Source: a virus | Reading direction: 5' to 3' (one strand) | IMG/VR virus record: IMGVR_UViG_3300042462_000200 | Coordinates: 1-64,000 of that record | DNA length: 64,000 nucleotides | Shown here: positions 4,949 through 29,841 of the stretch, one piece after another | Layout of the letters: each line of letters starts with the position of its first letter | Numbering within the stretch: position 1 is the stretch's first letter | Position numbers and translations under genes: made by a program | The notes under the pieces: model-generated | Seen by the model: the letters and a program-made list of their open reading frames with translations, nothing else | What the model was told of the DNA's origin: nothing | Databases searched by the model: none

Positions 4949-5095
4949 CTAATCCTCTTTCTTTTCTTCAGTTTGACTATCAGTTTGCTGTTTTAAATCA
5001 ACAAGCAGGGGGTATGCACCGGACGAAGTTGGAAGTTGACCTAACGTACCTAATATTGCATTTGCTGATTCTTCAGATAAATTCCAAGTAATCAT
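4949..5095 (-). CDS. Small hypothetical protein (48 aa)
   Basis: The start ATG overlaps the stop of the preceding gene (TAATG), which is good evidence for coupling. The N-terminal half is helical (NLSEESANAILGTLGQLP) and the C-terminus is highly charged (QTEEKKED). The pattern of a helical NLSEESANxIL motif resembles short proteins found near phage tail appendage genes. No function is recognised. Confidence 0.6.
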   Translation of the reverse strand: MITWNLSEESANAILGTLGQLPTSSGAYPLLVDLKQQTDSQTEEKKED

Positions 5096-5400
5096 TAGTT
5101 GCTCCAAGGTGTGCCGTTAGATAGTACGATTTGTTTGTTTTCAATATGAGCCGCTAATTCCGAATCTGCTAACGCTTCAGACTGTGTACCCACTAACTTT
5201 TTAATCCATGCAATAACATCTGCTTTTGATAGTTTATCGTAATCAATGACTGTGCCTTTAGGTGCAGGTAAGCCTGTGATCGAGTTAACCGTTACGCTGT
5301 CTGTGCCGTTTGATGCTGTGATTGTAAATTGCACTTGGTTCACAATACCGTTTTGGTCGCGTTGCAAGTTAGTTGGTTCGTATGTGTATGTTGTTGTCAT
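5095..5400 (-). CDS. Conserved phage beta-rich small protein (DUF7936-like)
   Basis: The start is set at ATG 5400 (MTTTYTYEP), preceded by an AAGGA site; an upstream frame to 5436 would overlap the fibre gene. The protein of 101 residues has an N-terminal beta stretch (VNQVQFTITASNGTDSVTV) and a C-terminal helical part ending in PWSN. This layout, with the MTTTY opening, matches a family of small proteins common next to phage tail-fibre genes. Their role is unknown; they may be fibre accessory proteins. Confidence 0.65.
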   Translation of the reverse strand: MTTTYTYEPTNLQRDQNGIVNQVQFTITASNGTDSVTVNSITGLPAPKGTVIDYDKLSKADVIAWIKKLVGTQSEALADSELAAHIENKQIVLSNGTPWSN

Positions 5401-5410
5401 GAGTATTTCC

Positions 5411-6739
5411 TTAAGTGATTGTTTGCCATGCCGCACCAGAGTACACGCAAAGTTTACTTAATGTTGTATCAAAAACCATCAACCCTGCCGCTGGAGAGGA
5501 TATAGCGTTTTTCTGCGTAGTTGTCATATTAGGCATTCTCACGCCTTTTGTCGTTGATTGCACATCAAGAATCGCTGAGAGATTTGGTGAGGTTGTACCA
5601 ATTCCAATATTGCCAGACGATTCAATACGCATACACTCTACAGCTGCTTGCCCGTTCGCATTTGATGCAAAGACCAAGTTGTTTCCGTTTTGCCCAACCC
5701 CTGTAGTTACTGCACCGATATATGAGTATCTATTGTCTTCGGTATCATTTGCGCTATTTATAAATGCCAGCACGCTGCCAGTATTTGCTCCGCTAACTCT
5801 ATTTTGAAACTGACCGAGTATTGTCAAAGCGTTCGCATCGCTACGAACATGTAACTTTGAGCTGGCTAGACTTGTACCAATCCCCAAATTCCCAGCCAAA
5901 TAGTTACCTGCCGTTCCTGCCATATAGAGATTGTATCTACCTGTACCAAACGGTATATTACCAACAAAACCCCAATTGTTGCTTGTCGCACCTATGAGTG
6001 TTTCATTTACTTGAAAACCATATTGGCTAGTAATTGACGAACCTGCACCAATAACACCTTGTGCTGCCACGAAGTTAATCGCATTAGCTAGAGTAAACGC
6101 ACTAGCCGCAGTCGTAGTTGTACCGCGAAATATGTTATAATCACCTGTGACATCTGCCGCTACCACAGGAGCGGAAAGAACACTAAAGCCATTTACTGCT
6201 CCGGTAATAAGCCCTGTCCCAGCTATAGTCAATCCACGCCCAGCAGACGGAATTACGTTTACCCCAATTCGCCCTGCACTATCAATCCTCATGCGCTCAG
6301 TTGCGCTAGTTAAAAAAGTAATTGACGCTGTATTAGCAGATTGTAATTGAAGTTCTCCTGTTCCAGTGTTTATTATTTGGAAAGCTCCGTTAGCACCAGT
6401 ACCTCTAATAATTCGGGTTTCATAATCTGCGCCAGAAGTTGAATGGACGTCAATATATGACGTTCCATCTCCAGTTCTATTGCCACCCAATTCTATACCT
6501 GCTGCCCCTGTAGTAACGCCAATTCCTGTAGATATTAATGCTCCTACAGTAAGGTCGCCAGCCAAATAGTTATCAGCCGTTCCCGAAGCATAAATATTAT
6601 AGCCACTGTTTGCAGTAAGGTTAATTGCACCCGTCATTGTGCCGCCAGTGGCAGGTAAAACATAATTAGCATCTAAATAAGCCAACTCACCTAAATCCGC
6701 ATTGGTGGGTACTTGATCAGGATCTGTACCGATTAACAT
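5411..6739 (-). CDS. Tail fibre/appendage protein with fibre-type C-terminal domain
   Basis: The start ATG at 6739 overlaps the upstream stop as TGATG. The N-terminal 20 residues (GTDPDQVPTNADLGELAY) are nearly the same as those of the protein at 7059-9146, so both probably dock at the same site. The middle is a fibre-like repetitive region with GIGT, LTVGA and AGNYLAGNLGIG repeats typical of trimeric beta-helical appendages. The C-terminus (DVQSTTKGVRMPNMTTTQKN, then SPAAGLMVFDT and AWQTI) is a domain widely seen at the end of phage and bacterial fibre-type proteins. It probably recognises the host surface. Confidence 0.8.
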   Translation of the reverse strand: MLIGTDPDQVPTNADLGELAYLDANYVLPATGGTMTGAINLTANSGYNIYASGTADNYLAGDLTVGALISTGIGVTTGAAGIELGGNRTGDGTSYIDVHSTSGADYETRIIRGTGANGAFQIINTGTGELQLQSANTASITFLTSATERMRIDSAGRIGVNVIPSAGRGLTIAGTGLITGAVNGFSVLSAPVVAADVTGDYNIFRGTTTTAASAFTLANAINFVAAQGVIGAGSSITSQYGFQVNETLIGATSNNWGFVGNIPFGTGRYNLYMAGTAGNYLAGNLGIGTSLASSKLHVRSDANALTILGQFQNRVSGANTGSVLAFINSANDTEDNRYSYIGAVTTGVGQNGNNLVFASNANGQAAVECMRIESSGNIGIGTTSPNLSAILDVQSTTKGVRMPNMTTTQKNAISSPAAGLMVFDTTLSKLCVYSGAAWQTIT

Positions 6740-7062
6740 CACTCACCTGCCCATATTCTATAAGGGGTTGTCGGTGCTGTAATTAACGGCAATGCAGATT
6801 CTTGTTCAGATGTTAAATCAGCTTTAATATTAACATGCCATCCGTCAATGGGCAGCATTTCAGGATATTGCAGGTTATCTTCAGTACGTAATACTTGACC
6901 TGTTGGTTTATAGATTAAGCCAATTACGTCTGTAGTAATTTTTGTAATAAATTGGGTATCACTTTCTGTACCCCAAACTGGTTCAATAGTTGCTAAGCCT
7001 AATTCTAAGAACTTAGCTGTGAACTCAGCTTCATTTGTGAATTTTAAAAAATAGTTTTTCAT
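6739..7062 (-). CDS. Fibre-associated small protein (107 aa), possible fibre assembly factor
   Basis: The gene overlaps the fibre genes on both sides by one to four bases, so it is coupled to them. The sequence starts MKNYFLKFTNEAEF and contains IGLIYKPTGQVL and DGWHVNIKADL, a beta-rich fold often found in small proteins next to fibre genes. It ends TPYRIWAGE. A chaperone or fibre-cap role is likely by position only. Confidence 0.65.
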   Translation of the reverse strand: MKNYFLKFTNEAEFTAKFLELGLATIEPVWGTESDTQFITKITTDVIGLIYKPTGQVLRTEDNLQYPEMLPIDGWHVNIKADLTSEQESALPLITAPTTPYRIWAGE

Positions 7063-9146
7063 GTTGTTGTGAGTCCTTGAAGTTCAGTGTTGCTGAGACG
7101 TTTCGGGTAATAGGCTAGTTTGGCGATGTGACCGTTTAAATACAAATTACTGAACCATGAGCCAAGCGAAGCTTGATTGGTTTGCGGAACAGTTCCACTT
7201 GAGTCAGATAAAACAGAAGAACCGCTATAAGAAACACTAAAGTCATTAACTTTATATCCCCCAGCAAAATCAAATGTAGGCGATGACGTTACATTTAAAT
7301 TAGCTTGATTTATAGAGTTAGTATTTATTTCAAATTGAGAAAGATTGTTATTCACGTAAATGTTAATAGAGTTGGTATTAGTACCATTATTCATACTAGC
7401 AATGAAATTCGCTCCTTTAAATAAAGAATCGGCTTTAGCAAACACCGTCCCCTCGTCTTGTCTATACCAACTTGAAAAGTTAGTCCCAGTAATAACAGCA
7501 TTATCCGCTGGACGAGTTGCCGCTGATGAGCTAGATACATCTGCAGATCTTGTTCCTTGTGCTGAGGTTGTTGGAATGTAACTAGTGGCTGTATTTCCGG
7601 TTTCTAGTTGTGCGCCCCATATATAAGATGTACCATTTTCAGTACCAACTCCAAATCCTATTGAGCCATCACCTTGGTTTCTGACGTCTAGGGTTGCAAA
7701 AACATTTCCTGTAGAATTATTAGCAACTGTTACAGAGAATCTATACCAGCCATTGCCAACAGGAATAATTGAGGAACCCAAAACGGAGGCTCTGTTGCCT
7801 ATAGCCAAATCAGACCACCGTACCGCAGCCATCCCAGTATATACCGGCGTAGATCCTAAAACAAAGGCTATACTAATACTAGTATAGGGCGCTGTGCCTT
7901 GTTTTACGTATATACTAAAGGTATATATTGAAGAATTATTTGCAATTGCGACATCTTGTCTACGAGGACTATCTGATGTATTTGTATGGGCAAGCGTATC
8001 TGCTGTCATTGTACCGTCTGGCGAGATAGCTGTATTATTTGTGACTGTAAGACCGCCAACAGGCGAATACCAAACATTTGATTGATCTTCACTATAAGTC
8101 AGCAAATTAGTCGAAGCAGGCTCTAATAATAACTTAGGTGATAACGCTAAATTTAATGGGTTGTAATTATATCTAGCTACATTAGTCGCAGCAGATTGAA
8201 TTAAACCGTTTGAACCAATGAACGTACCGGTTGACGCACGGGAAGTAAAGGTATCGGCGGAAGGGATATAGCTTGTAGCAAATGCGCCTTGTTCTAGTTG
8301 TGCGCCCCAGATGTATAAGCCGGACACTCCATCGCCTGTATAGACATTAGTAGTTCCGTTAAATAATTGAACACTAAGCTGTGCGTTACCGGTTCCGGTT
8401 GCAGTTGCTGTAACAAAACAGCGATACCATCCGTTCCCGACAGATATCATTGAAATAGTTGGAGAGCCTAGATATGCGGCAGCTGCCTTAGTGGTAAGGT
8501 TGTATTTAGCATATTGATATCCAGAAAATCCAGTAGTAATGTCAAACCCTATAAGTGCTTCAGCCTTTTCGCCGCCTTTCATATAAAATGAAGCAGTATA
8601 TGCATTTCCGCTAACTGCATTAAAAGGATAAACAAGATAGTGCGCTCCGTTACTCGTATCTTCTACATGCTTATCAGCCGTCATCGTCCCATCTGGTGCA
8701 ATAGCAGCATTTGCAGTTATTGTAGAATTACCTTTAATCCAAGTCGCATTGTCAAAATTCTCACTATAACTCAGCAAATTAGTGCGTTGTTCTTCAATCA
8801 ACAAGCCTAGCGATTCACCCGTAAGCGGATTATGATCAAAGCGAGCTTCATTACTGGCAGCACTTTTAATTAATCCATCGTAACCAGTATAAGTTCCAAT
8901 GCCACCACGTGTAAATGTGATACGTGGATCTAAAGTTTTACTATTAGCGAAATCTAATAATAGACTAGGTCTGATAGTTGCTCTACCTGATCTAGCTAAT
9001 GCTGAATTCTTAATATCACCTGTTGTAACAGTACCAAGTGTATCGATCTCTGTATTACCCCTGAAGTAATCAGCGTCTTCATATGCCATTGTACCTAAGT
9101 CGGCATTTGTGGGGGTTTGGTTTGGTTTATTTCCTATTAATCCCAT
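7059..9146 (-). CDS. Tail/head fibre-like protein with duplicated lectin-type domain
   Basis: At 695 residues it opens with a docking sequence (NKPNQTPTNADLGTMAYEDA) shared with the fibre at 5411-6739. Two copies of a beta-sandwich module follow. The first starts RPSLLLDFANSKTLDPRITF and runs to a GAQLEQGAFATSYIPS motif near residue 295; the second starts at about residue 300 and ends GAQLETGNTATSYIPT. The pattern RTNLL-YSENFDNATW-APDGTMTADK is typical of jelly-roll carbohydrate-binding modules in phage appendages. The C-terminal part (LSNTELQGLT) also resembles concanavalin-like domains. The start has a GGAGG site. Carbohydrate binding is inferred from fold type; no catalytic residues are evident. 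Confidence 0.78.
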   Translation of the reverse strand: MGLIGNKPNQTPTNADLGTMAYEDADYFRGNTEIDTLGTVTTGDIKNSALARSGRATIRPSLLLDFANSKTLDPRITFTRGGIGTYTGYDGLIKSAASNEARFDHNPLTGESLGLLIEEQRTNLLSYSENFDNATWIKGNSTITANAAIAPDGTMTADKHVEDTSNGAHYLVYPFNAVSGNAYTASFYMKGGEKAEALIGFDITTGFSGYQYAKYNLTTKAAAAYLGSPTISMISVGNGWYRCFVTATATGTGNAQLSVQLFNGTTNVYTGDGVSGLYIWGAQLEQGAFATSYIPSADTFTSRASTGTFIGSNGLIQSAATNVARYNYNPLNLALSPKLLLEPASTNLLTYSEDQSNVWYSPVGGLTVTNNTAISPDGTMTADTLAHTNTSDSPRRQDVAIANNSSIYTFSIYVKQGTAPYTSISIAFVLGSTPVYTGMAAVRWSDLAIGNRASVLGSSIIPVGNGWYRFSVTVANNSTGNVFATLDVRNQGDGSIGFGVGTENGTSYIWGAQLETGNTATSYIPTTSAQGTRSADVSSSSAATRPADNAVITGTNFSSWYRQDEGTVFAKADSLFKGANFIASMNNGTNTNSINIYVNNNLSQFEINTNSINQANLNVTSSPTFDFAGGYKVNDFSVSYSGSSVLSDSSGTVPQTNQASLGSWFSNLYLNGHIAKLAYYPKRLSNTELQGLTTT

Positions 9147-11210
9147 TTAGCCTCCTGTAAGTGATTGTAGTTCTGCATTTGACAGACGTTTAGGGTAATA
9201 TGCTAGTTTGAGTATGTGTAAGTTTTGAGTAGGCCCAATTAACATTCTACTCATACCTTGTCCAACTGCAGCAGACGTATCAGTTTCAGTTGTGCTACCA
9301 GAAACTGAAAGTGCAATGTCATTAGTTGCGTATGCAAGTGCGCATGATATTACAGTTTGTGATGTAACAGCAGCTCCATTTAAATCCCATTGAGAAACAC
9401 TGTTATTAAATCCGTACGAATCAATAAATGCGCTGCCACTACCGCTCACATATCTTAATGAAATAAATGCACCGCCTGCAGCCGTATCTACCCATGCTAT
9501 AGTCGAAACCGATACTGCAGTAGTAGTTGACATTAATCTTGAAGTTGCATGCAATGTGCCTTGATCTTGTCTGTACCAATTTAAATCTGTCATCACAGCA
9601 TTATCAGCCAATCGCGTATATTGCCCCGATGAACTCACATCGGCACTACGAGTAACTTGGCTAGAAGTTGTTGGGATATAACTAGTGGCTGTAGTTCCTA
9701 CTTCTAGTTGTGCGCCCCATACATAATAGTTACCAACACCAACTCCGCCCAATCCCCAATATTCTGACTGTATTCTGCAATTTAATAAATAAGCACCTGC
9801 AAGTGTGTTTTTAAGGGTCACTGATATTCTATACCAATTGTTTGGATATGGTGTAATAGAATAAGTCCCATCTCCCCAATACGCTACACTTCCATCTGTA
9901 TTTAATGTCGCACCTGATGAAGGCCAAGATGTACCGTTATAATATCCCATCCATACAACAGGCTTTGTAGCTGTCCCGGCTTTAACAAAACATGAAAAAG
10001 TTCTAGTTATTCCATCATTGGCCGTTATACTAAGATTTACTGCAATATGCCCCTCAACTGTTGCACTAGTGTCTGTAATCATATCAGCTGTCATTGTACC
10101 ATCTGGTGCAATAGCAGCATTAGGTGTTACAGACACATTTGATGCCTGCCAGCTGGATGCATTATCAAACTGTTCACTATATACCAATAAATTAGTCGCA
10201 GCAGGCTCAAGTAACAACTTAGGCGCCAATTTCAAATTCATTGGATTATAATCATATCGCGCAGTATCAATAGCTGCAGTTTTAACTAATCCATCAGATC
10301 CAGTATATGTAGCGGTAGATGCGCGTGACGTGAATGTATCACTTGAAGGGATATAACTAGTTGCAAATGCGCCTTCTTCTAATTGAGCACCCCAAATATA
10401 AACACCAGATTTACCATCGCCTGCATAAACAGCTTGGGGGGTTGCTCCTGTGGCTAATTGTAGTCTAAATAAACCTGTTCGAGTAAGTGTTCCTGTATAT
10501 GACGCAGAAATTCTATACCACCCATTTCCTACAGGTATTACACTTGGATTAATTAAGTATGATTGAGTTCCTGCCGCCAAAGCACCTGTTTCAAGATCTA
10601 CAATATAATCTAAATCTGGATTTGAAAGAGCTGTTCTAAGTCTAATAAATTTAGCTCCGGCATTTTTAGCGTAAACACTCATTGTGTATGTTGTGCCACT
10701 AATAATGGACGGTACTATATAATCAACATAATGTTCACTATTTGTAGTTGTTTCTGCTAATAATTTAGCCGAATATGTGCCATCTGGCGCAATAGCAATA
10801 TTTTGTGAAATAAATGCGTTCCATAGCAGCCAACTAGCGCTATCAAACTGCTCACTAGATGGCAATAAATTAGTACGTTGCTCTTCAATCAATAATCCCA
10901 AAGACTCTTTAGTAACCGGATCATGGTCGAAACGTGGTTTACCCGCCTCAACTCTCTCGAGCAATCCATCAGCATTATATCTAGTACCGATGGACGCTCG
11001 TGTAAATGTAATTCTCTTATCTAATCTCTTAAGATTAGAAAAATCTAACAACAGACTAGGTCTAATGCTACTTTTAGTATTCTCAATATTAACGGTTACA
11101 TTATCGACTGCATCTTTGAGGTTAATGAAGTTAGTGTCTAACTCTGTATTTGTTAATGTTGAATTCTTAGCATACGACCCTGTCTGACGAGTGACAATAT
11201 TGACGGCCAT
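9147..11210 (-). CDS. Fibre-like protein, paralogue of the 7059-9146 gene
   Basis: It has 687 residues. It lacks the PTNADLG docking sequence and instead begins MAVNIVTRQTGSYAKNSTLT with a short coiled-coil segment. From residue 50 it aligns along its length with its neighbour: RPSLLLDFSNLKRLDKRITF, LGLLIEEQRTNLL, two GAQLExGxxATSYIPx motifs, and a closing KLAYYPKRLSNAELQSLT. The two genes are thus a tandem duplication with different N-termini and diverged binding modules. Probable role: an appendage that binds surface glycans. Confidence 0.78.
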   Translation of the reverse strand: MAVNIVTRQTGSYAKNSTLTNTELDTNFINLKDAVDNVTVNIENTKSSIRPSLLLDFSNLKRLDKRITFTRASIGTRYNADGLLERVEAGKPRFDHDPVTKESLGLLIEEQRTNLLPSSEQFDSASWLLWNAFISQNIAIAPDGTYSAKLLAETTTNSEHYVDYIVPSIISGTTYTMSVYAKNAGAKFIRLRTALSNPDLDYIVDLETGALAAGTQSYLINPSVIPVGNGWYRISASYTGTLTRTGLFRLQLATGATPQAVYAGDGKSGVYIWGAQLEEGAFATSYIPSSDTFTSRASTATYTGSDGLVKTAAIDTARYDYNPMNLKLAPKLLLEPAATNLLVYSEQFDNASSWQASNVSVTPNAAIAPDGTMTADMITDTSATVEGHIAVNLSITANDGITRTFSCFVKAGTATKPVVWMGYYNGTSWPSSGATLNTDGSVAYWGDGTYSITPYPNNWYRISVTLKNTLAGAYLLNCRIQSEYWGLGGVGVGNYYVWGAQLEVGTTATSYIPTTSSQVTRSADVSSSGQYTRLADNAVMTDLNWYRQDQGTLHATSRLMSTTTAVSVSTIAWVDTAAGGAFISLRYVSGSGSAFIDSYGFNNSVSQWDLNGAAVTSQTVISCALAYATNDIALSVSGSTTETDTSAAVGQGMSRMLIGPTQNLHILKLAYYPKRLSNAELQSLTGG

Positions 11211-11211
11211 A

Positions 11212-11676
11212 TTAGAGTACCTGTAGTTTCCATGTCACTGTTAAAGTATCTGCAGCGCCTTTGTTAATAACACTAAATACGGTACGTGCAATCATATCAT
11301 TTGCTGTAGTTGTAGCGGCATTAAATAAACCTGCTTCAGTAATAGCGCCTGTAGCGACTCCTGCCCCAAATGTGGTAGCTACTGAAACAGTATCATTGGT
11401 AAGGATTGTGGTAGACGCAGCAGGAGCACTAGAAGCGACACGTGCGCCTAGGGCTGCAACTAAGGCTGTATCTGTAGCTGTAACAGCTGTTGCTCCTGTG
11501 CCTACACCAACCCAACCAATAGCTGATGGTGCGCCAGTAGCTAATAATCTTTGGGCGATATAGCCTTTACCGATATTTACAATCGTATTACTTGTGCCAC
11601 TTTGTTTAACATTACCATTTTCATCTCTAAGCTCGAACTCTACGTAGCCTTTAGCTTGAATTTGTTCTGAAATCAT
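11212..11676 (-). CDS. Structural protein, small beta-sandwich type (154 aa)
   Basis: The sequence opens with FELRDENGNVKQSGTSNTIV, then GKGYIAQRLL and a GWVGVGTGAT turn, and ends with TVFSVINKGAADTLTVTWKLQVL. This arrangement is shared by a family of small phage structural proteins often encoded beside fibre genes. The start at 11676 has an AAGGA site. It lies one base before the 687-residue gene. Whether it decorates the capsid or joins the appendage cannot be told. Confidence 0.65.
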   Translation of the reverse strand: MISEQIQAKGYVEFELRDENGNVKQSGTSNTIVNIGKGYIAQRLLATGAPSAIGWVGVGTGATAVTATDTALVAALGARVASSAPAASTTILTNDTVSVATTFGAGVATGAITEAGLFNAATTTANDMIARTVFSVINKGAADTLTVTWKLQVL

Positions 11677-11687
11677 TTTGTCTTCCT

Positions 11688-13007
11688 TTAGTATAAAGTT
11701 CCTACATACATAGGCGTAACGTAGTCATTTGCTACATAATTATTAAAGTACATTGAAATCGAATCGGAGCATCCAATTGTTTCAATAGTTATTTTGTTTG
11801 GATTTAATAATATAGAATCCGAGTTGGATGATGTATCTGCGAATGGACGCGAAAGATTTAATAATATATTGTCATTACTTGATAGGGTTTCTATAATATT
11901 CTTATTAACATCATACTTAATTACATCAGTACCAGCTAAGGTATCAGCAATAATTCTGCTTGCGGAAAATTGTATCGAAATATTATCGATAGTAGTACTT
12001 GTGTCACTTTTTGATGTACTAATATTACTACTAACGCTATCAGATGTGCTGGTCGAATCATTTATGAATTTGCCAATATCATTTTTAACTGTATCCGCAG
12101 TAGAAAGGGTATCTGAAAATACTTTTCCTAATACAAATGAAATTAAATCACTAGAATTTAATGTATCAATAAAACCTCTAATGAATGATAATAATGTAAT
12201 TACACTATCTCCAATACTTGCAGTATCTGCAATATTTTTACTTACATTATAATTAATTGCATCAGTATTTGAAATATTATCTTGAATATTTTTACCAATA
12301 GCATTTACAGAGTTATCGCTTGCGCTACATGTTTCATTAAAGTTTTTACCAACGCCTGTCACCACCTGATCTAGTACTGGAGATAGGGTATCCGTAAATA
12401 CTTTACCTACGTTATTAGAAATAATATCTGATAAATTAAAATCATCGTTATCATTCGCATAGACTATTTCCATTAACGCGTCGCTGAATGAAAATTGATC
12501 AACAATAATTTTACTAAATGCTTTAGAAATAGTATCAGTTGGTGCAAATGTTTCGATAGGAATAGCTTTAGATATACCTAAATCAACAGTATCTTTAGTA
12601 AGAAAATCAGCTAGATAAGGGTCTTCTGCGTAACCGGATTCAAAGTAATCGAAGTTACCATGTTCCTCTTTAACTATGTTAATATCTTTAGCAATTATTT
12701 CACTGACACTAACAGTGTCTAATGTAATTTTACCTATAGCTAATACGCTAAGATCACTAGCAGTGAAATTATCAACAGGGATAGACCGTGTTACATCTAA
12801 AGATACTATTTCACCAATATTGATATTTTCTTCAAGAGCCTCATAATACCCGCCATATCTGACAGGATCATTAATATCATAAATAAAATCAGCAGATGTG
12901 AAAGCTGATTCTGTTATCGCAGTCGCTACTGTATAGTTAGTGGCTAAGGATTTCTGTGTTACGTTAGTTGTTAGCTTACCATAAATTAAATTAGTTTTTA
13001 ATTTCAT
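11688..13007 (-). CDS. Structural protein built of about 17 short tandem repeats
   Basis: The 439-residue protein is made largely of a unit of 17-22 residues with the pattern IGK-hydrophobic-x-DTLS-x-SD-x-hydrophobic, for example GKVFSDTLSTADTV and NKNIIETLSSNDNI. I count about 17 units between residues 70 and 430, with a spacer near 112-130 holding a FESGYAEDPY motif. Repeats of this kind occur in phage proteins thought to form fibres or decorate virions. It overlaps its upstream neighbour by four bases as ATGA. Low-complexity composition (Ser, Thr, Asp, Asn) is strong. Confidence 0.7.
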   Translation of the reverse strand: MKLKTNLIYGKLTTNVTQKSLATNYTVATAITESAFTSADFIYDINDPVRYGGYYEALEENINIGEIVSLDVTRSIPVDNFTASDLSVLAIGKITLDTVSVSEIIAKDINIVKEEHGNFDYFESGYAEDPYLADFLTKDTVDLGISKAIPIETFAPTDTISKAFSKIIVDQFSFSDALMEIVYANDNDDFNLSDIISNNVGKVFTDTLSPVLDQVVTGVGKNFNETCSASDNSVNAIGKNIQDNISNTDAINYNVSKNIADTASIGDSVITLLSFIRGFIDTLNSSDLISFVLGKVFSDTLSTADTVKNDIGKFINDSTSTSDSVSSNISTSKSDTSTTIDNISIQFSASRIIADTLAGTDVIKYDVNKNIIETLSSNDNILLNLSRPFADTSSNSDSILLNPNKITIETIGCSDSISMYFNNYVANDYVTPMYVGTLY

Positions 13008-13594
13008 ACGTCAGGTACAAGGTCAGTAAGGCTATATAAAAGCTCTACTGTACCTCTTACTGGTTTCCATGTTCTAACAAAATTAGATGGATTAGCCGGT
13101 TCTGTAACTCTTAATTCAAAGAATCCATATACAGGGCTATCTACTGTTGGACTCTTTTCCCATCCTGTAGATATTGTACTAGGGAATCTGATGCTAATAT
13201 CATTTAAATTAATATTTAACCATTTAGTAGATATTGCACTTGGAGTTTCATTGCCTGAAAGTAGTAAGAATTTATAATAGAGGCCGTTGTATAAAACTAC
13301 ATCATCGTAATTATATGTATTTGTCGATACCCAATTAGTTGGTGTACGAGGCCTGACAACAGTTAGTGGTGTTTGAACACCATTTAACTTGATAGTCAAT
13401 GGTGCTTCTGTTTGCCCATCTACATTTAAGGCTTCTAATAAAACAGCTTCAAATGTATAAGCAAGAGATGCATCAGTAATAAAATTAAGTGTAATAGGAA
13501 ATTCGAGTTGTTCACCTTTAACGAATGACCATAAAACACCACCACCATCTGTAATTAGATCATCTGTTGCACTATTAAATTTGGATCTAGCCAT
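13004..13594 (-). CDS. Virion-associated protein with carbohydrate-binding-like segment (196 aa)
   Basis: The start at 13594 has a strong GGAGGGG site. The first third is beta-rich (GGVLWSFVKGEQLEFPITL). Residues 85-125 (WVSTNTYNYDDVVLYNGLYY ending with ISTKW) have the aromatic spacing of CBM5/12-type modules, where a W-x-Y-x(n)-V-x-Y-G-x-x-Y-x(n)-P-x(n)-W pattern binds chitin-like sugars. The end is a beta domain with TWKPVRGTVELLYSL. It overlaps both neighbours and belongs to the appendage group. Confidence 0.65.
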   Translation of the reverse strand: MARSKFNSATDDLITDGGGVLWSFVKGEQLEFPITLNFITDASLAYTFEAVLLEALNVDGQTEAPLTIKLNGVQTPLTVVRPRTPTNWVSTNTYNYDDVVLYNGLYYKFLLLSGNETPSAISTKWLNINLNDISIRFPSTISTGWEKSPTVDSPVYGFFELRVTEPANPSNFVRTWKPVRGTVELLYSLTDLVPDV

Positions 13595-13955
13595 TGCCCC
13601 TCCAATCTGTCTTATCAGCTTTTCTTTCTAGTTTATCGAGTATTTGATCTAATTTCTTTCCCAGGCTTTCACCTAGGGTTTTAAGATCTTCTTTACGAGC
13701 ATATTGCGTAGCCATTTGAGTTTCTAAATCTTCTAACTTATCTAACTTTTTAGAGATATCTTGTAGCTGTTGATTAAGTTCGACTTTCTTCACATAATCG
13801 TTAGCAATAAGGATTTTAACATCACTAATAGCCTTTGCAACAGAATCGTTATCTGCTTCTAACTTATTAAACTTAGACATAAGTAGCCCCAATGCGGCTG
13901 TGGCAATCGTGCCTCCAGCACTCAATACGACATTTACCCAATCTTGTGCTTCCAT
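13587..13955 (-). CDS. Membrane-anchored coiled-coil protein (122 aa)
   Basis: The start is placed at ATG 13955 (MEAQDWVNVV), with an AAGGA site; upstream codons in this frame belong to the terminase end. Residues 6-26 form one hydrophobic segment (VVLSAGGTIATAALGLLM), followed by about 85 residues of heptad-like coiled coil rich in Lys, Asp, Glu and Leu. This layout occurs in phage holin-like or spanin-like proteins and in some attachment proteins. It begins right after terminase. Which of those it is cannot be decided from sequence alone. Confidence 0.6.
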   Translation of the reverse strand: MEAQDWVNVVLSAGGTIATAALGLLMSKFNKLEADNDSVAKAISDVKILIANDYVKKVELNQQLQDISKKLDKLEDLETQMATQYARKEDLKTLGESLGKKLDQILDKLERKADKTDWRGNG

Positions 13956-13965
13956 TTTATTATCC

Positions 13966-14937
13966 TTAAAAGTTGAAACCACGAGAAACCCGTTTCCCGC
14001 CCGTTTGTATTGGATAGAGGTATTCTGTGGCATATCTAATACCATCAGAAAAATGCTCTATACCTTCCGACTTATCAATAGTCGCTATATCTAGATTACG
14101 GTCAGTCCATTTTGTTCTCTCTAATGATAAAATGGTACCGCTACATTTTGGATGCACATACAGGTCTATTTTACCTGATGCGGTTTGTAACTTACGATTA
14201 ACAGCTGCAACACTATCAACAATAGGAGGAGCTGCTCTATGCGCTTTACAAATAATCCCATTGGATTCTAGTATACTGAAATCCGTTCGTCCCACCGGCG
14301 CAGAAGTCTTTCGAGATCTTCCTGATGGATCTGGGTATGCATAGATTTTGTGCCCTTCAAATTTGGTCTTAAGAGCGATAGCGAGGGCTTCAGTGTCTGG
14401 GTGTCCTTGCATCTCATCGATAAACTGCATCTGATGACCTCTGAGTGCGAATACACTAGAACATTGTCGCATGACGTTAAAGTCGATACAGACATGTACA
14501 TCTTCTCCTGGTTCAAAGTATTTTAAATGCCCATCTACATGTTTCTTTCTATCGAAACAATAAAAGACACTATTACCAGATTCTGCAAATGAAGCCATAT
14601 ACTCTGATGCCCATGTTACAGGATCTAACTTATCCCTCAGTTTTTCAATTTCAACAGGATCTAAGAAAGGTGACTGTAAATAATCATATTGCCAGAATCC
14701 CCAATCAGGATCAGACTCATGATACATACACATCTCATGAAAGAAGTTGTATCCTTTCGGTGTACTAATAAGTAAAGCTCTTCCAGGTGATTTAGCACCA
14801 ACAGCTAATGCCCTTCTATTGCTCCAACGAGTTGCAATAGTAGGCTGTATTACGGACTGCCATGCCTCCTCAGCACTAATGCCTTTAGTACAAGAAGAGA
14901 CTTCGTCCCAGACAACGAAGTATGCCATTGTGTTCAA
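13966..14937 (-). CDS. terL: Terminase large subunit, exon 2 (C-terminal ATPase part and nuclease)
   Basis: Exon 2 begins at 14937 and reads in frame with exon 1 after removal of the intron, giving a 446-residue protein. The junction reads ERMRGKG-LNTMAYFVVWDE, so the Walker B (FVVWDE) comes directly after the exon boundary. The coupling motif STPKG follows at about residue 175 of the spliced protein. The nuclease domain has HVCIDFNVM (first acidic residue) and a late IEHFSDGIRYATEY with Asp. Terminase large subunit powers DNA packaging and cuts the concatemer. Exon 2 also has its own ATG at 14925, but a free C-terminal product would lack the Walker A. Confidence 0.9.
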   Translation of the reverse strand: MNTMAYFVVWDEVSSCTKGISAEEAWQSVIQPTIATRWSNRRALAVGAKSPGRALLISTPKGYNFFHEMCMYHESDPDWGFWQYDYLQSPFLDPVEIEKLRDKLDPVTWASEYMASFAESGNSVFYCFDRKKHVDGHLKYFEPGEDVHVCIDFNVMRQCSSVFALRGHQMQFIDEMQGHPDTEALAIALKTKFEGHKIYAYPDPSGRSRKTSAPVGRTDFSILESNGIICKAHRAAPPIVDSVAAVNRKLQTASGKIDLYVHPKCSGTILSLERTKWTDRNLDIATIDKSEGIEHFSDGIRYATEYLYPIQTGGKRVSRGFNF

Positions 14938-15873
14938 CAAAGGTCGTTAATCTCTGCCAGTTTTCTTTGCCGATTTGTTAGTAGTTAATCCAAGTTTTAC
15001 CTTGGCGTATTTGGTTTATTGTGCCTCTTGCAACATTAAAATGACGTCCTATTTCCGCATCATTTTTACTATCCTTAAACATTTGTCGAATAGTAGGAAT
15101 GTCCGTTGGTGATAATTTCTTAACAGGATTAGCGGATAATAAAGGCAATGGATATGTAGCTATATGTTTCCATATCTTACCTAAACGGATACTGCTTATA
15201 GTACCTGAAGAAATATTATATTCATTGGCTAAAATATAATCAAGTTCACCATTTATCATCCTAGCTCTAATTGTAATAACATCATCTTCTGATAATCTGC
15301 GATTAGGTCTTAATAATCCTGTATCATATGCATGTTTAATATTCTCTGAGCCTGTCACCCACTCTAAGTTAGTTACATAATTATTTTGTTTATTACCATC
15401 AATATGATTAACTTGTGGCTTACCCTCTGGATTATCAATAAACAATGCTGCAACTAATCTGTGGACTCTGTGTCTTTCTCTAATACCATCATAAAATAGA
15501 TCTACACATAAATAGCTTCTATTATTAGGAAATGGTTTTAATAATTCGTTATTTGAATTATAAATATTACCAAAATTGCTTATAGTATATTGTGTATCTT
15601 TAAATCTTTTAAATTCTTCTTTCATTGTAAATTTCACATGTACTCGGCAAAGTACTTCTATATATTACTATATAGATCAGACTATATCTTAACATAATAA
15701 ATTATGTCTTCCGCTTTTCGAGATCACTTGACCTCTATGAATTTCATCATCTGTTCTAGATGGTATATTCTAGTCGTTGAACCTTCAAAGTCTTCCCAGA
15801 CTAGGCTTGGCTGCTGATTGTCCTTAAAGAGGAGTTTCCAGCAATTAACGGAATTTTACAAGGGCACTTGTTT
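14938..15873 (-). ncRNA. Group I intron in the terminase large subunit gene
   Basis: On the minus strand the conserved core is present in order. P is AATTGCTGGAAACTCC (15831-15846), Q is AATCAGCAGCCAAGCC (15804-15819), R is GGTTCAACGACTAGAA (15768-15783) and S is AAGATATAGTC (within 15677-15690). The exon 1 end AAGGGT pairs with GCCCTT in the first bases of the intron, leaving the U.G wobble that marks group I 5' splice sites. The 3' end is set at a G at 14938; exon 2 TTG can then pair with CAA in the guide (P10). Splicing joins the two terminase exons in frame. The HNH gene lies downstream of S, in the P9 region. Confidence 0.92.
14978..15625 (-). CDS. HNH homing endonuclease encoded in the group I intron
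   Basis: The protein is about 215 residues from the ATG at 15625; a GTG four codons upstream (15637) is an alternative start. It opens with a NUMOD4-like segment (YTISNFGNIYNSNNELLKP). The HNH core follows: VHRLVAALF, then QVNHIDGNKQNNYVTNLEWV, as in I-HmuI-type enzymes. The C-terminal part has two DNA-binding helix-turn-helix-like units (EYNISSGTISSIRLGKIWKH and FNVARGTINQIRQGKTW) that probably read the target. It would cut intron-less terminase alleles and so spread the intron. No good ribosome site is visible, as is common for intron ORFs. Confidence 0.92.
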   Translation of the reverse strand: MKEEFKRFKDTQYTISNFGNIYNSNNELLKPFPNNRSYLCVDLFYDGIRERHRVHRLVAALFIDNPEGKPQVNHIDGNKQNNYVTNLEWVTGSENIKHAYDTGLLRPNRRLSEDDVITIRARMINGELDYILANEYNISSGTISSIRLGKIWKHIATYPLPLLSANPVKKLSPTDIPTIRQMFKDSKNDAEIGRHFNVARGTINQIRQGKTWINY

Positions 15874-16242
15874 ACCCTTACCACGCATACGTTCAACCGA
15901 TTCGTACGAGAGTAGTATTAACTCTACATTACTAGGAAATAAGAACCGTCCTGTATCGCGAGATGCTTTAATTGCATAATGCTCCATCCCAAGATCATAA
16001 TGGATTAGCGGATAATAAATATCTTTTACCTGATCAAAGGTAGGAGCAATAATATATACCTTTTTATTAGGCACATTAGCTGGTAATTCGAGTAGTTCGA
16101 ACACAGCAGATATAGCAGCTACAGCAGCCTTATAGGACTTGCCCCAGCCACGAGCACAACACACAGTGGCATATCTAACACTACGCTCAATAAATAAAGC
16201 ACGATAAATTTCTGATTGTGCTGGATGTAATTCAATGGCCAT
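15874..16242 (-). CDS. terL: Terminase large subunit, exon 1 (N-terminal ATPase part)
   Basis: Exon 1 encodes 123 residues from ATG 16242, preceded by a GGAG site. It has the Walker A-like CCARGWGKSY at residues 28-37, the VYIIAPTFDQVKD helix, and ESVERMRGKG just before the splice site at a codon boundary. Without splicing the frame would read six more codons (KQVPL and stop) into the intron and lose Walker B. Fusion with exon 2 (14937-13966) restores a terminase of normal length. Confidence 0.9.
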
Positions 16243-23816: not shown

Positions 23817-23978
23817 TTAATTCCAACAAATATATGTGTTCTTAAACCAGTAACCAAAAGAGAACTTCATTTGTACATACCTATACGTACGATACAATTC
23901 TCTTAACTGCTTACGTCTTTGTTGGCTATCACCTTTTAATGTTACTTGTACTTCACCCGTGGCATGAGAGACACTCAT
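23817..23978 (-). CDS. Small basic protein (53 aa)
   Basis: The start at ATG 23978 (MSVSHATGEV) lies inside the 3' end of the reductase gene, with an AAGGA site nine bases upstream. The protein is basic (QQRRKQLRELYRTYRY) and ends in an aromatic, hydrophobic stretch (FGYWFKNTYICW). No family is known; it ends just before a terminator. Confidence 0.55.
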   Translation of the reverse strand: MSVSHATGEVQVTLKGDSQQRRKQLRELYRTYRYVQMKFSFGYWFKNTYICWN

Positions 23979-25662
23979 CTTTATTAGTCCTTGCACCATT
24001 AGTAGTGCGAATATAATACAATGATTTAATACCTTCTAGCTCAAATGCTTCTTGATGTATTTCAGAGATATACTCTTCAGTTTCATCAGCATCAAAGAAG
24101 AGATTAATAGATTGACCTTGATCAATATAAGGCTGTCTAGCTGCTGCTAGTTTCAAGATACTCTTTTGGTTAATTTCAAATGCAGTTTTAAATACATCTT
24201 TTTCATGGTCACTGAGCCAATCAACATGCTGGACAGAGCCATTATTTCTGATGATATCCTTAAGAGTTTTTTGCACATCAAGACCAGCTTCTACAATTAA
24301 GTGCATCAATGCAGGTGATGATCTTCTCATCTTACCGCCTGCAGTGTTTTGTACAAATGCATTCTTATAAATAGGTTCAATACCTTGAGATGTACCGCCA
24401 GCTATTAAAGAGCTAGATAAGTTTGGTGCAATAGCCATTCGATGTGTATTACGAATGCCAAGCCCTAAGCACCATTCAGGTTCACCCCATACGCTAGCCA
24501 TCCATTTAGATGCCATTAGAGATTGAGTATTAAGGTATTTGAACATTTCTTGGCTAACCAAGTGAGCATCAAAGCTTTCAAATGCAATGCTGTGTTCTTG
24601 TAAGTAGCTATGAAAGCCTAATAAGCCTAAACCTAATGCTCTAGACTTTTCAGCAAACCTTACAATACGCTCCATGCCTGGTTTTTCTTTACCAATACGA
24701 ATTTGATCTTCATTAACACAATCAAGAAACACAGTGGCATTAAAGACCGCGTCTGGTACAGCTTTCCACTCATCATACTTAGCAGCATTCATTGACGATA
24801 ATACACAAGAGAATGTATACTCTTCGTTTTCATGGATACCACTAAACAGGGCAATCTCAGTACATAGATTAGAAGCTTTAACTTCTAGGTCTCTACGTCT
24901 ATATGAATGTGGCAAAGCTCTCTTTACTTTGTCTGCAAAGAAGAAATAGCCTTTACCAAGCATTCTTAGCTTCATTGCCTTCTGGTAACGCCTTGTAGCA
25001 TCTTTGTCCCCTGCGTTAAGTCTGCGTACAAAATCATCTGAAATGCACCAGCCAACATTAGCATCATCAGGGAAATTAAGTATATGTGTAGCCAGTTCAT
25101 CAAAGTCTCCATGTTCAATATCTAAATAACCTGCCCAAGCACCTCTACGTTGAGAGCCTTGACTAATGTCTTGTGCTACTTTAACAAATCCTTTAAATAC
25201 TGGTAACACACCTGAAGCAGATCCGGCCACACCAGAAATAGCGGCACCACGTTTACGAATATTACCAAGATAATTACTAGTACCATATCCCTGCTGCGAG
25301 AGGACTGCGGCTTCTTGTTGCTTGGCATAGAAGTCAAATACTGAATCCTGGACTGTACTTCCGGAACATGAAACCGGACATCCGTTACCCGTGCCCATAT
25401 TGGCACAAACAGGCGTAGAAGGTATAAGCCAGCCTTTCCAGAGAAGTTCGAAGAATTTTTCTTCCCAAGCTGATTGATTATCTGTGTAAGAAGCCGCGTG
25501 CTTAGCAATACGACGATAGATCGACAGTAGATCTGGATATTGTTCAGATACATATTTTTCCTTTAGTAGCTGCCAGCTATTGGTAATAATCCACTCAGGA
25601 AGTTTTCCTTCTTTTTGTAGACGTTTTCTTTCAATACTTAACTCACGATAAATACTGGTCAT
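23953..25662 (-). CDS. nrdA: Ribonucleotide reductase, class I, alpha subunit
   Basis: The protein has 569 residues, shorter than E. coli NrdA (761), because the N-terminal ATP-cone is missing. The catalytic core is complete: the first redox Cys in GCPVSCSGST, NLCTEIAL with Asn, the radical Cys and Glu at about 288-295, and the second redox Cys in FSCVLSSMN. The radical-transfer Tyr pair is in SLYYIRT, and a C-terminal CLSC pair is present. It reduces nucleotides to deoxynucleotides for phage DNA synthesis. It overlaps nrdB by 20 bases. Confidence 0.95.
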   Translation of the reverse strand: MTSIYRELSIERKRLQKEGKLPEWIITNSWQLLKEKYVSEQYPDLLSIYRRIAKHAASYTDNQSAWEEKFFELLWKGWLIPSTPVCANMGTGNGCPVSCSGSTVQDSVFDFYAKQQEAAVLSQQGYGTSNYLGNIRKRGAAISGVAGSASGVLPVFKGFVKVAQDISQGSQRRGAWAGYLDIEHGDFDELATHILNFPDDANVGWCISDDFVRRLNAGDKDATRRYQKAMKLRMLGKGYFFFADKVKRALPHSYRRRDLEVKASNLCTEIALFSGIHENEEYTFSCVLSSMNAAKYDEWKAVPDAVFNATVFLDCVNEDQIRIGKEKPGMERIVRFAEKSRALGLGLLGFHSYLQEHSIAFESFDAHLVSQEMFKYLNTQSLMASKWMASVWGEPEWCLGLGIRNTHRMAIAPNLSSSLIAGGTSQGIEPIYKNAFVQNTAGGKMRRSSPALMHLIVEAGLDVQKTLKDIIRNNGSVQHVDWLSDHEKDVFKTAFEINQKSILKLAAARQPYIDQGQSINLFFDADETEEYISEIHQEAFELEGIKSLYYIRTTNGARTNKDECLSCHG

Positions 25663-26659
25663 TTTTCACCTTCCATGTAAATTTAGTTTCAGTCCAATTA
25701 CGCTTATAGTCGTTGCCCATTGCAATGAATGTATCATGCAAAGTACTACTTTCAATATCGTCATAGAACCAATCAGCGATTGGGTTATACTTTGGATCAA
25801 ATAAAACCTTAGCGCCTAGCCTTGTTAAACATAGATCAAGTCTACTTTGTACAAAGTTTTCTAACATTAAAGATGTAATACCTTCAATCGGTCCAAACTC
25901 AAACATCTTCTTGATAATATCTCTTTCATTCTCTGCAATAATCCATGCAGTTACTTCTAGATCGTTGTATAAAACTTCCAAATTAATGTACTCTTCAGGA
26001 TCATTAAGGGCTTCATGCAGTGTTGTATTAAAGATCCAGGCACCCGTTCTAGCATGAATGTCCTCATCAATAGCACTAAAATTAATCCCAGCATTGATAT
26101 TCTGGAATTTGTTTTTACCGTCTGAATTAAAATGTTTCAAGAAAGCAAATGATGAATATAAGACTGCGCCTTCAATCATACTGAAGATTGCTACTGATGT
26201 TAACTTATCCATTGTAGTTTCATGTTTAGAGACTACACGTTCCATCCACTCTAGCCTTTCAGCAAGAATTACGTCTTCTTGATAGGAATTCATAAACTCA
26301 TCGGTATTTAAACCTAATAGTTCATTTATTTTGAAATAAAATGGAGCATGGATATTCAATTCAGTCATTGCATGCACAGATGCAACTCTTTGTACGTCTG
26401 GTCTTGGAAAGAACTTAGGAATATAATCTCGCCAATAATTGTTACCGACATGGATTTCATAGTGTACAAAGATCTTTAATGTATTGACAATCCCATAGTA
26501 CTCTGCCTCTGTGCAATTAGTTCTTAACTCATGGATATCTTTTTCAACTTCTATCTCGTGCGCAAACCATGCAATTTCCGCTTGCCTGATTGCAAACTCT
26601 ACTGCAGCTGGATAGTCTACACCATAGGATTCTCTAGGTGTTAATATTTGTGCTGTCAT
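25643..26659 (-). CDS. nrdB: Ribonucleotide reductase, class I, beta subunit
   Basis: The 338-residue ferritin-like protein has iron-ligand regions: EIHVGNNYW in the first helix, ELNIHAPFY for the second, with His and the probable radical Tyr four residues later, and IDEDIHARTGAW in the second half. The Glu and His in ELNIH are four apart, against three in E. coli EXXH. The start at 26659 has an AAGGA site. It makes the radical used by NrdA. Confidence 0.93.
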   Translation of the reverse strand: MTAQILTPRESYGVDYPAAVEFAIRQAEIAWFAHEIEVEKDIHELRTNCTEAEYYGIVNTLKIFVHYEIHVGNNYWRDYIPKFFPRPDVQRVASVHAMTELNIHAPFYFKINELLGLNTDEFMNSYQEDVILAERLEWMERVVSKHETTMDKLTSVAIFSMIEGAVLYSSFAFLKHFNSDGKNKFQNINAGINFSAIDEDIHARTGAWIFNTTLHEALNDPEEYINLEVLYNDLEVTAWIIAENERDIIKKMFEFGPIEGITSLMLENFVQSRLDLCLTRLGAKVLFDPKYNPIADWFYDDIESSTLHDTFIAMGNDYKRNWTETKFTWKVKNDQYLS

Positions 26660-29551: not shown

Positions 29552-29841
29552 TTTCCTAAAACTCCCATATCTTGTGACAAAATCATACGCATTTCTGTTT
29601 TGGCTATCTTATCTCTTATGTGAGATTTCATATCGCAATTTAGTCTAATATTACACTCACTAGCCAGCATAATAAGAATAGCTTGTACATCAGCTAATTC
29701 ATTCTTTAGCTTTTGCTTGTTACTATGTTCGTATTCTTCACACTGATGATCCAGTGTGAATCTAATACACTTAGAAGCTTCTTGTGCAGCTTCTGATAAC
29801 TCTTCCATAAGGCATACTAATAAATATTGTTCTGAATTCAT
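29548..29841 (-). CDS. MazG-like nucleotide pyrophosphohydrolase
   Basis: The start is placed at ATG 29841, overlapping the polymerase stop as TGATG. The all-alpha NTP-PPase signature is present: MEELSEAAQEASK with E-x-x-E spacing, then KNELADVQAILIML with a E-x-x-D pair. Such enzymes hydrolyse NTPs or alarmones; in phages they may lower ppGpp and keep host transcription on. The protein is 97 residues, a single-domain type. Confidence 0.75.
   Translation of the reverse strand: MNSEQYLLVCLMEELSEAAQEASKCIRFTLDHQCEEYEHSNKQKLKNELADVQAILIMLASECNIRLNCDMKSHIRDKIAKTEMRMILSQDMGVLGK

Follow-up and report, generated by a model that had tools for sequence, protein, structure and literature searches.

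Why a phage should carry fibre-like genes among the genes for its head, and on which part of the virion their products would sit, is the question raised by a locus in the IMG/VR virus record IMGVR_UViG_3300042462_000200. In the current study, we analyzed positions 1 to 64,000 of this 65,873-base record (hereafter, the window), in which three fibre-like genes, here named fibA, fibB, and fibC, lie between a terminase and a portal gene, both recognized by PHROG matches. This placement had been noted in a preliminary description made from the sequence alone, and it is borne out here. The genes treated here all lie on the minus strand, and the order of transcription is terminase, g14045, g13594, g13007, g11676, fibA, fibB, g7062, fibC, g5397, lysozyme, g4023, portal, and MuF-type head protein (Table 1). 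Since a tape measure (63356-53409, assigned by length and position), a distal tail protein (53406-52765), and J (52136-44583) are encoded at the other end of the window, the phage is probably a siphovirus. We consider it likely that the block is a host-recognition (tail-fibre) cassette lying beside head genes. Its anatomy, mosaic structure, and swaps are read from the sequence, and from gene context and predicted folds we infer a location on the tail.

Leaders and modules of the fibre-like proteins

The N-termini of fibB (residues 1-49) and fibC (residues 1-44) share a leader of the PTNADLG type, with 47% identity over 49 columns (E 2e-4) and an alignment score of 95; none of 5000 shuffles reached this score, the highest being 55. 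Beyond the leader, fibB and fibC have nothing significant in common, and fibA is without it. The bodies of fibA and fibB are 45% identical over 691 columns (E 1e-162). Each contains two stretches that match the NCBIfam family NF048003, "GTA_spike_fiber," at 275 bits in fibA and 290 bits in fibB, the curated cut-off being 36 bits. fibC has no lectin module and matches PHROG tail fibre families. These results agree with the docking segment and the paired lectin-type modules that had been proposed. A Pfam search with the three proteins gave no useful family, and a PDB sequence search with fibC gave nothing significant.

Leaders of the PTNADLG type were found on 33 open reading frames (ORFs) of 114 to 850 amino acids with variable bodies, many of them mutual copies and some cut by contig ends. 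The exact fibB leader had no match in named phages, and a composite leader gave weak matches there, to Delftia phage PhiW-14 (E 0.2) and to S-WAM2, S-CAM4, and ACG-2014j (E 1-3). The match in S-CAM4 lies directly behind a pair of genes annotated as tail protein, and the module is on the first of the pair. Judged from these sequences, named-phage relatives of the leader are uncertain.

A PDB sequence search with fibB retrieved the RcGTA head fibre Rcc01080 (E 7e-40), aligned over fibB residues 49-305, that is, the frame and core of module 1, as well as Pseudomonas phage baseplate proteins (8env, E 7e-6; 9b45, E 8e-6). In the predicted model of fibB (mean pLDDT 74.5, pTM 0.44), both cores are well-predicted beta sandwiches. 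Core 1 resembles carbohydrate-binding modules (CBMs) of the CBM16/CBM4 type (Z about 12), residues 321-544 resemble baseplate proteins of Pa193 (Z 23.7) and E217 (Z 19.6) at 23% identity, and the C-terminal domain resembles CBM40 (Z about 16) and laminin-G (Z about 11.5). Because the folds match such domains, the "lectin-type" label is right at the level of the models. Many of the CBM40 and laminin-G matches begin at residues 56-66 and end near residue 695, and these ranges suggest that a strand before module 1 completes the C-terminal domain in the predicted structure.

According to two reports, residues 2-10 of Rcc01080 fix it to capsid pentamers, and the protein binds capsule (PMC7296036; PMC10218006). 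It is, like fibB, a flexible glycan binder that would be anchored by its N-terminus in both cases (PMC7296036 for Rcc01080). Unlike fibB, it has 325 amino acids, a single matched stretch, the docking peptide IALGLGLGL, and a place on the head. E217 gp45, as described in PMC10329688, is a baseplate triplex subunit by which the tail fibre is anchored. E217 gp45 and Pa193 gp46 share the fold of fibB residues 321-544, but they are wedge or triplex subunits of the baseplate, with other N-terminal parts, in contractile phages. The NF048003 module family is thus present on both heads (RcGTA) and tails or baseplates (E217, Pa193), and membership in it therefore does not decide virion location.

Exchange of cores between conserved frames

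The fine-scale evidence for exchange comes mostly from one relative, L039 (L and G numbers label the related loci and records), a 77.5-kb record with a portal 73% identical to that of the window and the same gene order; the close relatives are metagenomic records. Borders were set by motifs for the comparison of identity and rank and by residue numbers for the comparison of third codon positions. With motif-set borders, the frames are 91-97% identical to their L039 counterparts, which ranked first of 85 in all four cases, and the leaders also ranked first. With residue-set borders, identity is 84-96% for the frames and 35-39% for the cores. The syntenic L039 cores ranked 40 (fibA core 1, 35% identity), 10 (fibA core 2, 38%), 48 (fibB core 1, 38%), and 10 (fibB core 2, 35%) of 85. 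The L039 counterpart of the fibA C-terminal domain is 93% identical and ranked second, the first place going to a partial copy of the window's own gene, and that of the fibB C-terminal domain is 43% identical and ranked fifth of 81.

The same patches appeared at the nucleotide level when third-position identity was counted at identical residues between the window and L039. Values were 62% for the terminase, 61% for the portal, and 56% for the MuF-type protein; 73% for the lysozyme, 68% for g11676, and 64% for g13007; and 97% for g14045, 97% for g13594, and 94% for g7062, the last being 97% identical in amino acids. Within fibA, the leader with frame 1 gave 91%, frame 2 84%, frame 3 89%, and the C-terminal domain 98%; within fibB, the leader with frame 1 gave 79%, frame 2 72%, and frame 3 70%. 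The cores gave 32-57% (46% for fibA core 1). Such synonymous jumps at the module borders are not made by selection at the protein level but are expected from patchwise recombination. The fibC leader is 84% identical over 25 residues in L039, where the rest of the protein differs and the product has 114 amino acids; the same unrelated short product replaces the fibC body in L039, L203, L205, and L206. Two otherwise close cassettes thus differ separately in at least six slots, namely the four cores, the C-terminal domain of fibB, and the body of fibC. That leaders and binding modules are exchanged independently, as the preliminary description held, is supported, and the comparison of module borders in relatives that it proposed places exchange at a finer scale, inside the NF048003 modules.

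Receptor-binding domains evolve fast, and core length and fold type are kept between the window and L039, so that the cores might be thought to have diverged in place under diversifying selection instead of having been replaced. We consider this very improbable, as the syntenic cores rank poorly and third-position identity, at 70-98% for the fibA C-terminal domain and for leaders and frames, is down to 32-57% in the cores even where residues are identical, a drop not accounted for by selection on amino acids. A diversity-generating retroelement was also considered as a source of the variation and rejected: none of six searched records, which may be fragments, matched the reverse transcriptase family RVT_1 (PF00078), as compared to three of 14 controls.

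Larger replacements were seen in other relatives. In the nearest relative, G006 (locus L005), whose portal is 98% identical, the region from about 13431 to 4841 is replaced, with 85-95% nucleotide identity on both flanks, and the homology of its cassette to the window is limited to weak pieces of g11676. Two tandem g11676 relatives (48% and 43%) precede the fibre block of this locus, at 223-1146. Among 34 portal loci, homologues of fibA and fibB were found in L004 (the same phage) and L013 (a fragment) only. None was found in L006-L012, which have portals about 86% identical and include several loci cut short; a weak match to fibC (24%) was seen in L010 and L012. The stretch from the fibA C-terminal domain through the fibB leader is 89% identical in nucleotides, over 530 columns, to L042 (record G008), a 372-kb record whose portal and major head protein are of T4 type and which also encodes a baseplate hub. 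The order at the fibA/fibB junction is the same there as in the window, and g7062 and a PTNADLG protein follow. The 57-82 kb region of this record is a very large fibre block with proteins of up to 2158 amino acids, and it has leaders, lectin domains, and g7062 in common with the window phage.

Partner genes g7062 and g11676

The g7062 gene, which the preliminary description did not mention, lies between fibB and fibC and overlaps each by about 4 nucleotides. fibC probably starts at the ATG at 6739, in an ATGA overlap with the g7062 stop, and not at the GTG at 6742. With adjacency defined as -60 to 300 nucleotides, 47 of the 74 non-redundant spike-module ORFs that could be evaluated had a g7062-family ORF immediately behind them. 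Conversely, 68 of the 79 g7062-family ORFs lie directly behind such an ORF and 11 fall outside the limits, some through contig ends or longer overlaps; as the loci were mostly fetched by similarity to fibB, these counts are not population rates. By analogy with the fibre-chaperone pairs common to unrelated Alteromonas phages, g7062 is probably a fibre-specific chaperone or cap. PMC10579305 describes a fibre and chaperone module common to the morphologically distinct phages A5, V22, and P24, which, like the window, combines a fibre with a downstream partner. Its fibre and chaperone proteins are different ones.

The g11676 gene had 115 relatives among pattern-matched viral contigs, of which 80 were kept. 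Behind 44 non-redundant members, regular expressions recognized one of three kinds of leader in the next ORF in 36 cases (22 type 3, nine type 2, five type 4), with eight classed as other; three of the latter were reassigned by eye (L159 and L191 to type 3, L120 to type 2). By a strict pattern, the fibA-type leader follows g11676 in seven of 44, namely fibA itself, fibA of L039, and G006 (L005), L124, L125, L132, and L135, and in the last five it sits on single proteins. The predicted structure of g11676 (pLDDT 79.9) gave VIA-align matches to an HFTV1 tail protein (Z 10.0), to phi812 baseplate proteins and A511 gp105 (Z 8.9-9.3), and to a chain of an entry for the GP4 fibre and fibre-tail adaptor (Z 5.5). 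There were 44 BFVD matches at E 0.001, and the best 50 rows included eight tail (collar) fibre names and no head name, most being unnamed. A PDB sequence search with g11676 found nothing significant and no match to a GTA base. Rcc01079, the jelly-roll base of the GTA head, was not among the listed Foldseek and VIA-align rows, although a missing row does not exclude it. Taken as a model, the fold of g11676 is tail-fibre-adaptor-like, resembling fibre-anchoring baseplate proteins and the N-domains of tail-collar fibres. In Listeria phage A511 and Staphylococcus phage phi812, the similar fold (115-117 residues) belongs to gp105, which attaches receptor-binding proteins, and to the baseplate arm, respectively; these are contractile phages of Gram-positive hosts, and identity to g11676 is 8%.

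Location on the virion

From the place of the genes within the head group, the preliminary description had concluded that the products decorate the head or neck. This is not upheld, as relatives carry J in the same slot, the partner genes stand behind J in G002, and the predicted fold of g11676 is of a tail type. In DSS3_VP1 and DSS3_PM1 (Naomviridae), J and a tail chaperone are encoded between terminase and portal, and in L031, L032, L034, L036, and L037, of which L031 and L034 have the same gene positions, Dit and J are found 1-5 kb upstream of the portal. In EBPR siphovirus 1, the terminase-portal interval is occupied by gp37, which is related to g11676, by gp38, which by eye has a leader of the fibA type, and by two large proteins, one of them named glycosyl hydrolase. 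The distant siphovirus G002 has a portal of a different type, which is followed by a head protein, the major tail protein, the tape measure, minor tail proteins, J, and a tail fibre; next come g13594, g13007, g11676, a 77-amino-acid protein with the fibA-type leader, fibres, and two DUF7936-like proteins. A search for J in 20 records found it in six and missed G001-G003, yet the J of G002 was found by its PHROG match (phrog_31, 1e-71). Seven annotated regions were inspected around module matches in named phages. RHph_TM16 carries the module within J itself, in RcapMu it stands two genes after a J-like gene, and in RHph_X2_25 it follows the tape measure directly. Azospirillum phage Cd has it beside a tail fibre gene, S-CAM4 in a gene annotated as tail protein, and Klebsiella phage RAH2 between fibre-like genes and the holin.

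Several observations speak against a tail location. The closest solved sequence relative, Rcc01080, sits on a head; the fibre block of the T4-like G008 ends near the gene for its major head protein (84916-86091); and in the seventh annotated region, from Nonlabens phage P12024S, portal and endolysin flank the module gene. The tail slot of G002 holds the partner genes and the fibA-type leader, not fibA, fibB, and fibC themselves. The fibB leader is predicted to be disordered (pLDDT below 50 for residues 1-57), so the model offers no docking surface. For g11676, the Z values of 9-10 are only somewhat higher than the usual background of 7-8, Foldseek found no match in the PDB at E 0.001 or better, and VIA-align also matched a connector protein (9mt4, Z 5.7). 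A literature search limited to Naomviridae found no virion proteomics.

These points lend some weight to two other placements. fibA and fibB could be head-vertex spikes like that of RcGTA, flexible and holding the virion to the capsule before the tail engages, as the best solved relative is a capsule-binding fibre anchored on capsid pentamers, the genes lie between terminase and portal, and head neighbourhoods recur in G008 and P12024S. However, neither the docking peptide IALGLGLGL nor a hydrophobic repeat was found at the N-termini of fibA, fibB, and fibC, annotated module carriers are often beside or inside tail-tip genes, and the slot holds J in relatives. With the tail-fibre-type predicted fold of g11676 and its position behind J in G002, we regard head spikes as unlikely. 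Neck or whisker fibres attached near the portal or connector would fit genes that adjoin the portal, the weak connector match of g11676, and the podovirus-like G018, where g13007 and g11676 come as a pair after structural genes between the major head protein and the fibres. Podovirus tail fibres themselves attach near the connector, however, and G018 is therefore compatible with tail fibres as well; in G002, moreover, the block is behind J. A neck attachment thus seems quite unlikely.

In the tail-fibre cassette that we favor, g13594, g13007, and above all g11676 would form an attachment base on the tail, to which fibA, fibB, and fibC would dock by their short N-terminal leaders, fibA by one type and fibB and fibC by the PTNADLG type. 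fibA and fibB would each present two predicted carbohydrate-binding beta-sandwich cores and a C-terminal lectin-like domain to glycans of the cell surface, with g7062 serving these fibres in particular, probably as their chaperone or cap. Homologous recombination in the conserved leaders, frames, and small partner genes could then replace cores, C-terminal domains, the fibC body, or the whole cassette, and such replacement would change receptor specificity.

Coordinates and neighbouring genes

Table 1. Features of the fibre block and its flanks in the window.
Feature	Residues	Position	Strand	Description
Terminase		16260-13966	minus	PHROG match
g14045		13587..14045	minus	First block gene behind terminase
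g13594		13004..13594	minus	Conserved partner; 98% amino acid identity with L039
g13007		11688..13007	minus	Repetitive 439-amino-acid partner; precedes g11676 in L039, G002, G018
g11676		11212..11676	minus	Conserved partner directly upstream of fibA; proposed fibre adaptor
fibA		9147..11210	minus	687 amino acids; own leader type, two NF048003 modules, C-terminal lectin-like domain
fibA leader	1-48	11067-11210	minus	Type "..TRxxxGSxLTNxExDxNF.."
fibA core 1	119-275	10386..10856	minus	Exchanged carbohydrate-binding core (predicted)
fibA core 2	351-497	9720..10160	minus	Exchanged core
fibA C-terminal domain through fibB leader		9069..9585	minus	89% nucleotide match to L042/G008
fibB		7059..9146	minus	695 amino acids; PTNADLG leader, two NF048003 modules, C-terminal CBM40/laminin-G-like domain
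fibB leader	1-49	9000-9146	minus	PTNADLG
fibB core 1	126-278	8313..8771	minus	Exchanged core; CBM4/CBM16-like beta sandwich
fibB core 2	351-505	7632..8096	minus	Exchanged core; resembles Pa193/E217 baseplate protein domain
fibB C-terminal domain	564-695	7062..7457	minus	Likewise exchanged
g7062		6739..7062	minus	107-amino-acid partner; proposed fibre chaperone or cap
fibC		5411..6742	minus	443 amino acids; PTNADLG leader (6611-6742) and tail-fibre-type body without lectin module
g5397		5095..5397	minus	DUF7936 (PF25590) protein of fibre block; two homologues behind G002 fibres
Portal		3836-2244	minus	PHROG match

The terminase gene is split by an insert (14926-15873) with a group I intron (15658-15915) and an HNH gene (14978-15637, minus strand). 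The insert is missing in G006 and G007, where the flanking terminase pieces are joined, and the terminase of L039 holds a different HNH gene. The MuF-type head protein (2-1669 in the window) has 1083 amino acids in L004, 1771 in L005, 1541 in L006, and 1644 in L008. Since its length differs so greatly while the first 556 residues of these proteins are 86-100% identical, exchangeable C-terminal parts are suggested. By eye, g13007 consists of many similar Asp/Ser-rich repeats, and its relatives in L131 and L135 have about 980 amino acids. Also by eye, large minus-strand ORFs resemble a single-subunit RNA polymerase (35206-37425), a family A DNA polymerase (29841-31790), and ribonucleotide reductase subunits (23953-26659).

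Implications

Fibres with shuffled domains are already known, and the multi-slot layout of frames and cores is a variant of these, the arrangement of two adjacent genes with repeated frames being less usual. We tentatively propose, at somewhat less than even odds, that fibA and fibB form a multi-slot receptor-binding cassette in which the frames repeated in adjacent genes serve as built-in recombination joints. Lectin cores would be replaced singly from a pool common to siphoviruses and T4-like jumbo phages, and the stand-alone adaptor g11676 would take several types of leader. The frames may also be conserved simply as structural parts, rather than having been selected as joints. The locus allows the rebuilding of receptor-binding proteins to be seen at nucleotide resolution, as cores whose closeness does not exceed the family background lie between frames with kept synonymous positions, and g11676 becomes a candidate for a general fibre adaptor family in siphovirus- and podovirus-like records. 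A domain that takes its name from GTA head spikes is here linked to an apparent tail-fibre cassette, a warning that location on the virion is not to be read from a domain name or from a position beside head genes. The defined borders of exchange could be used in binding tests.

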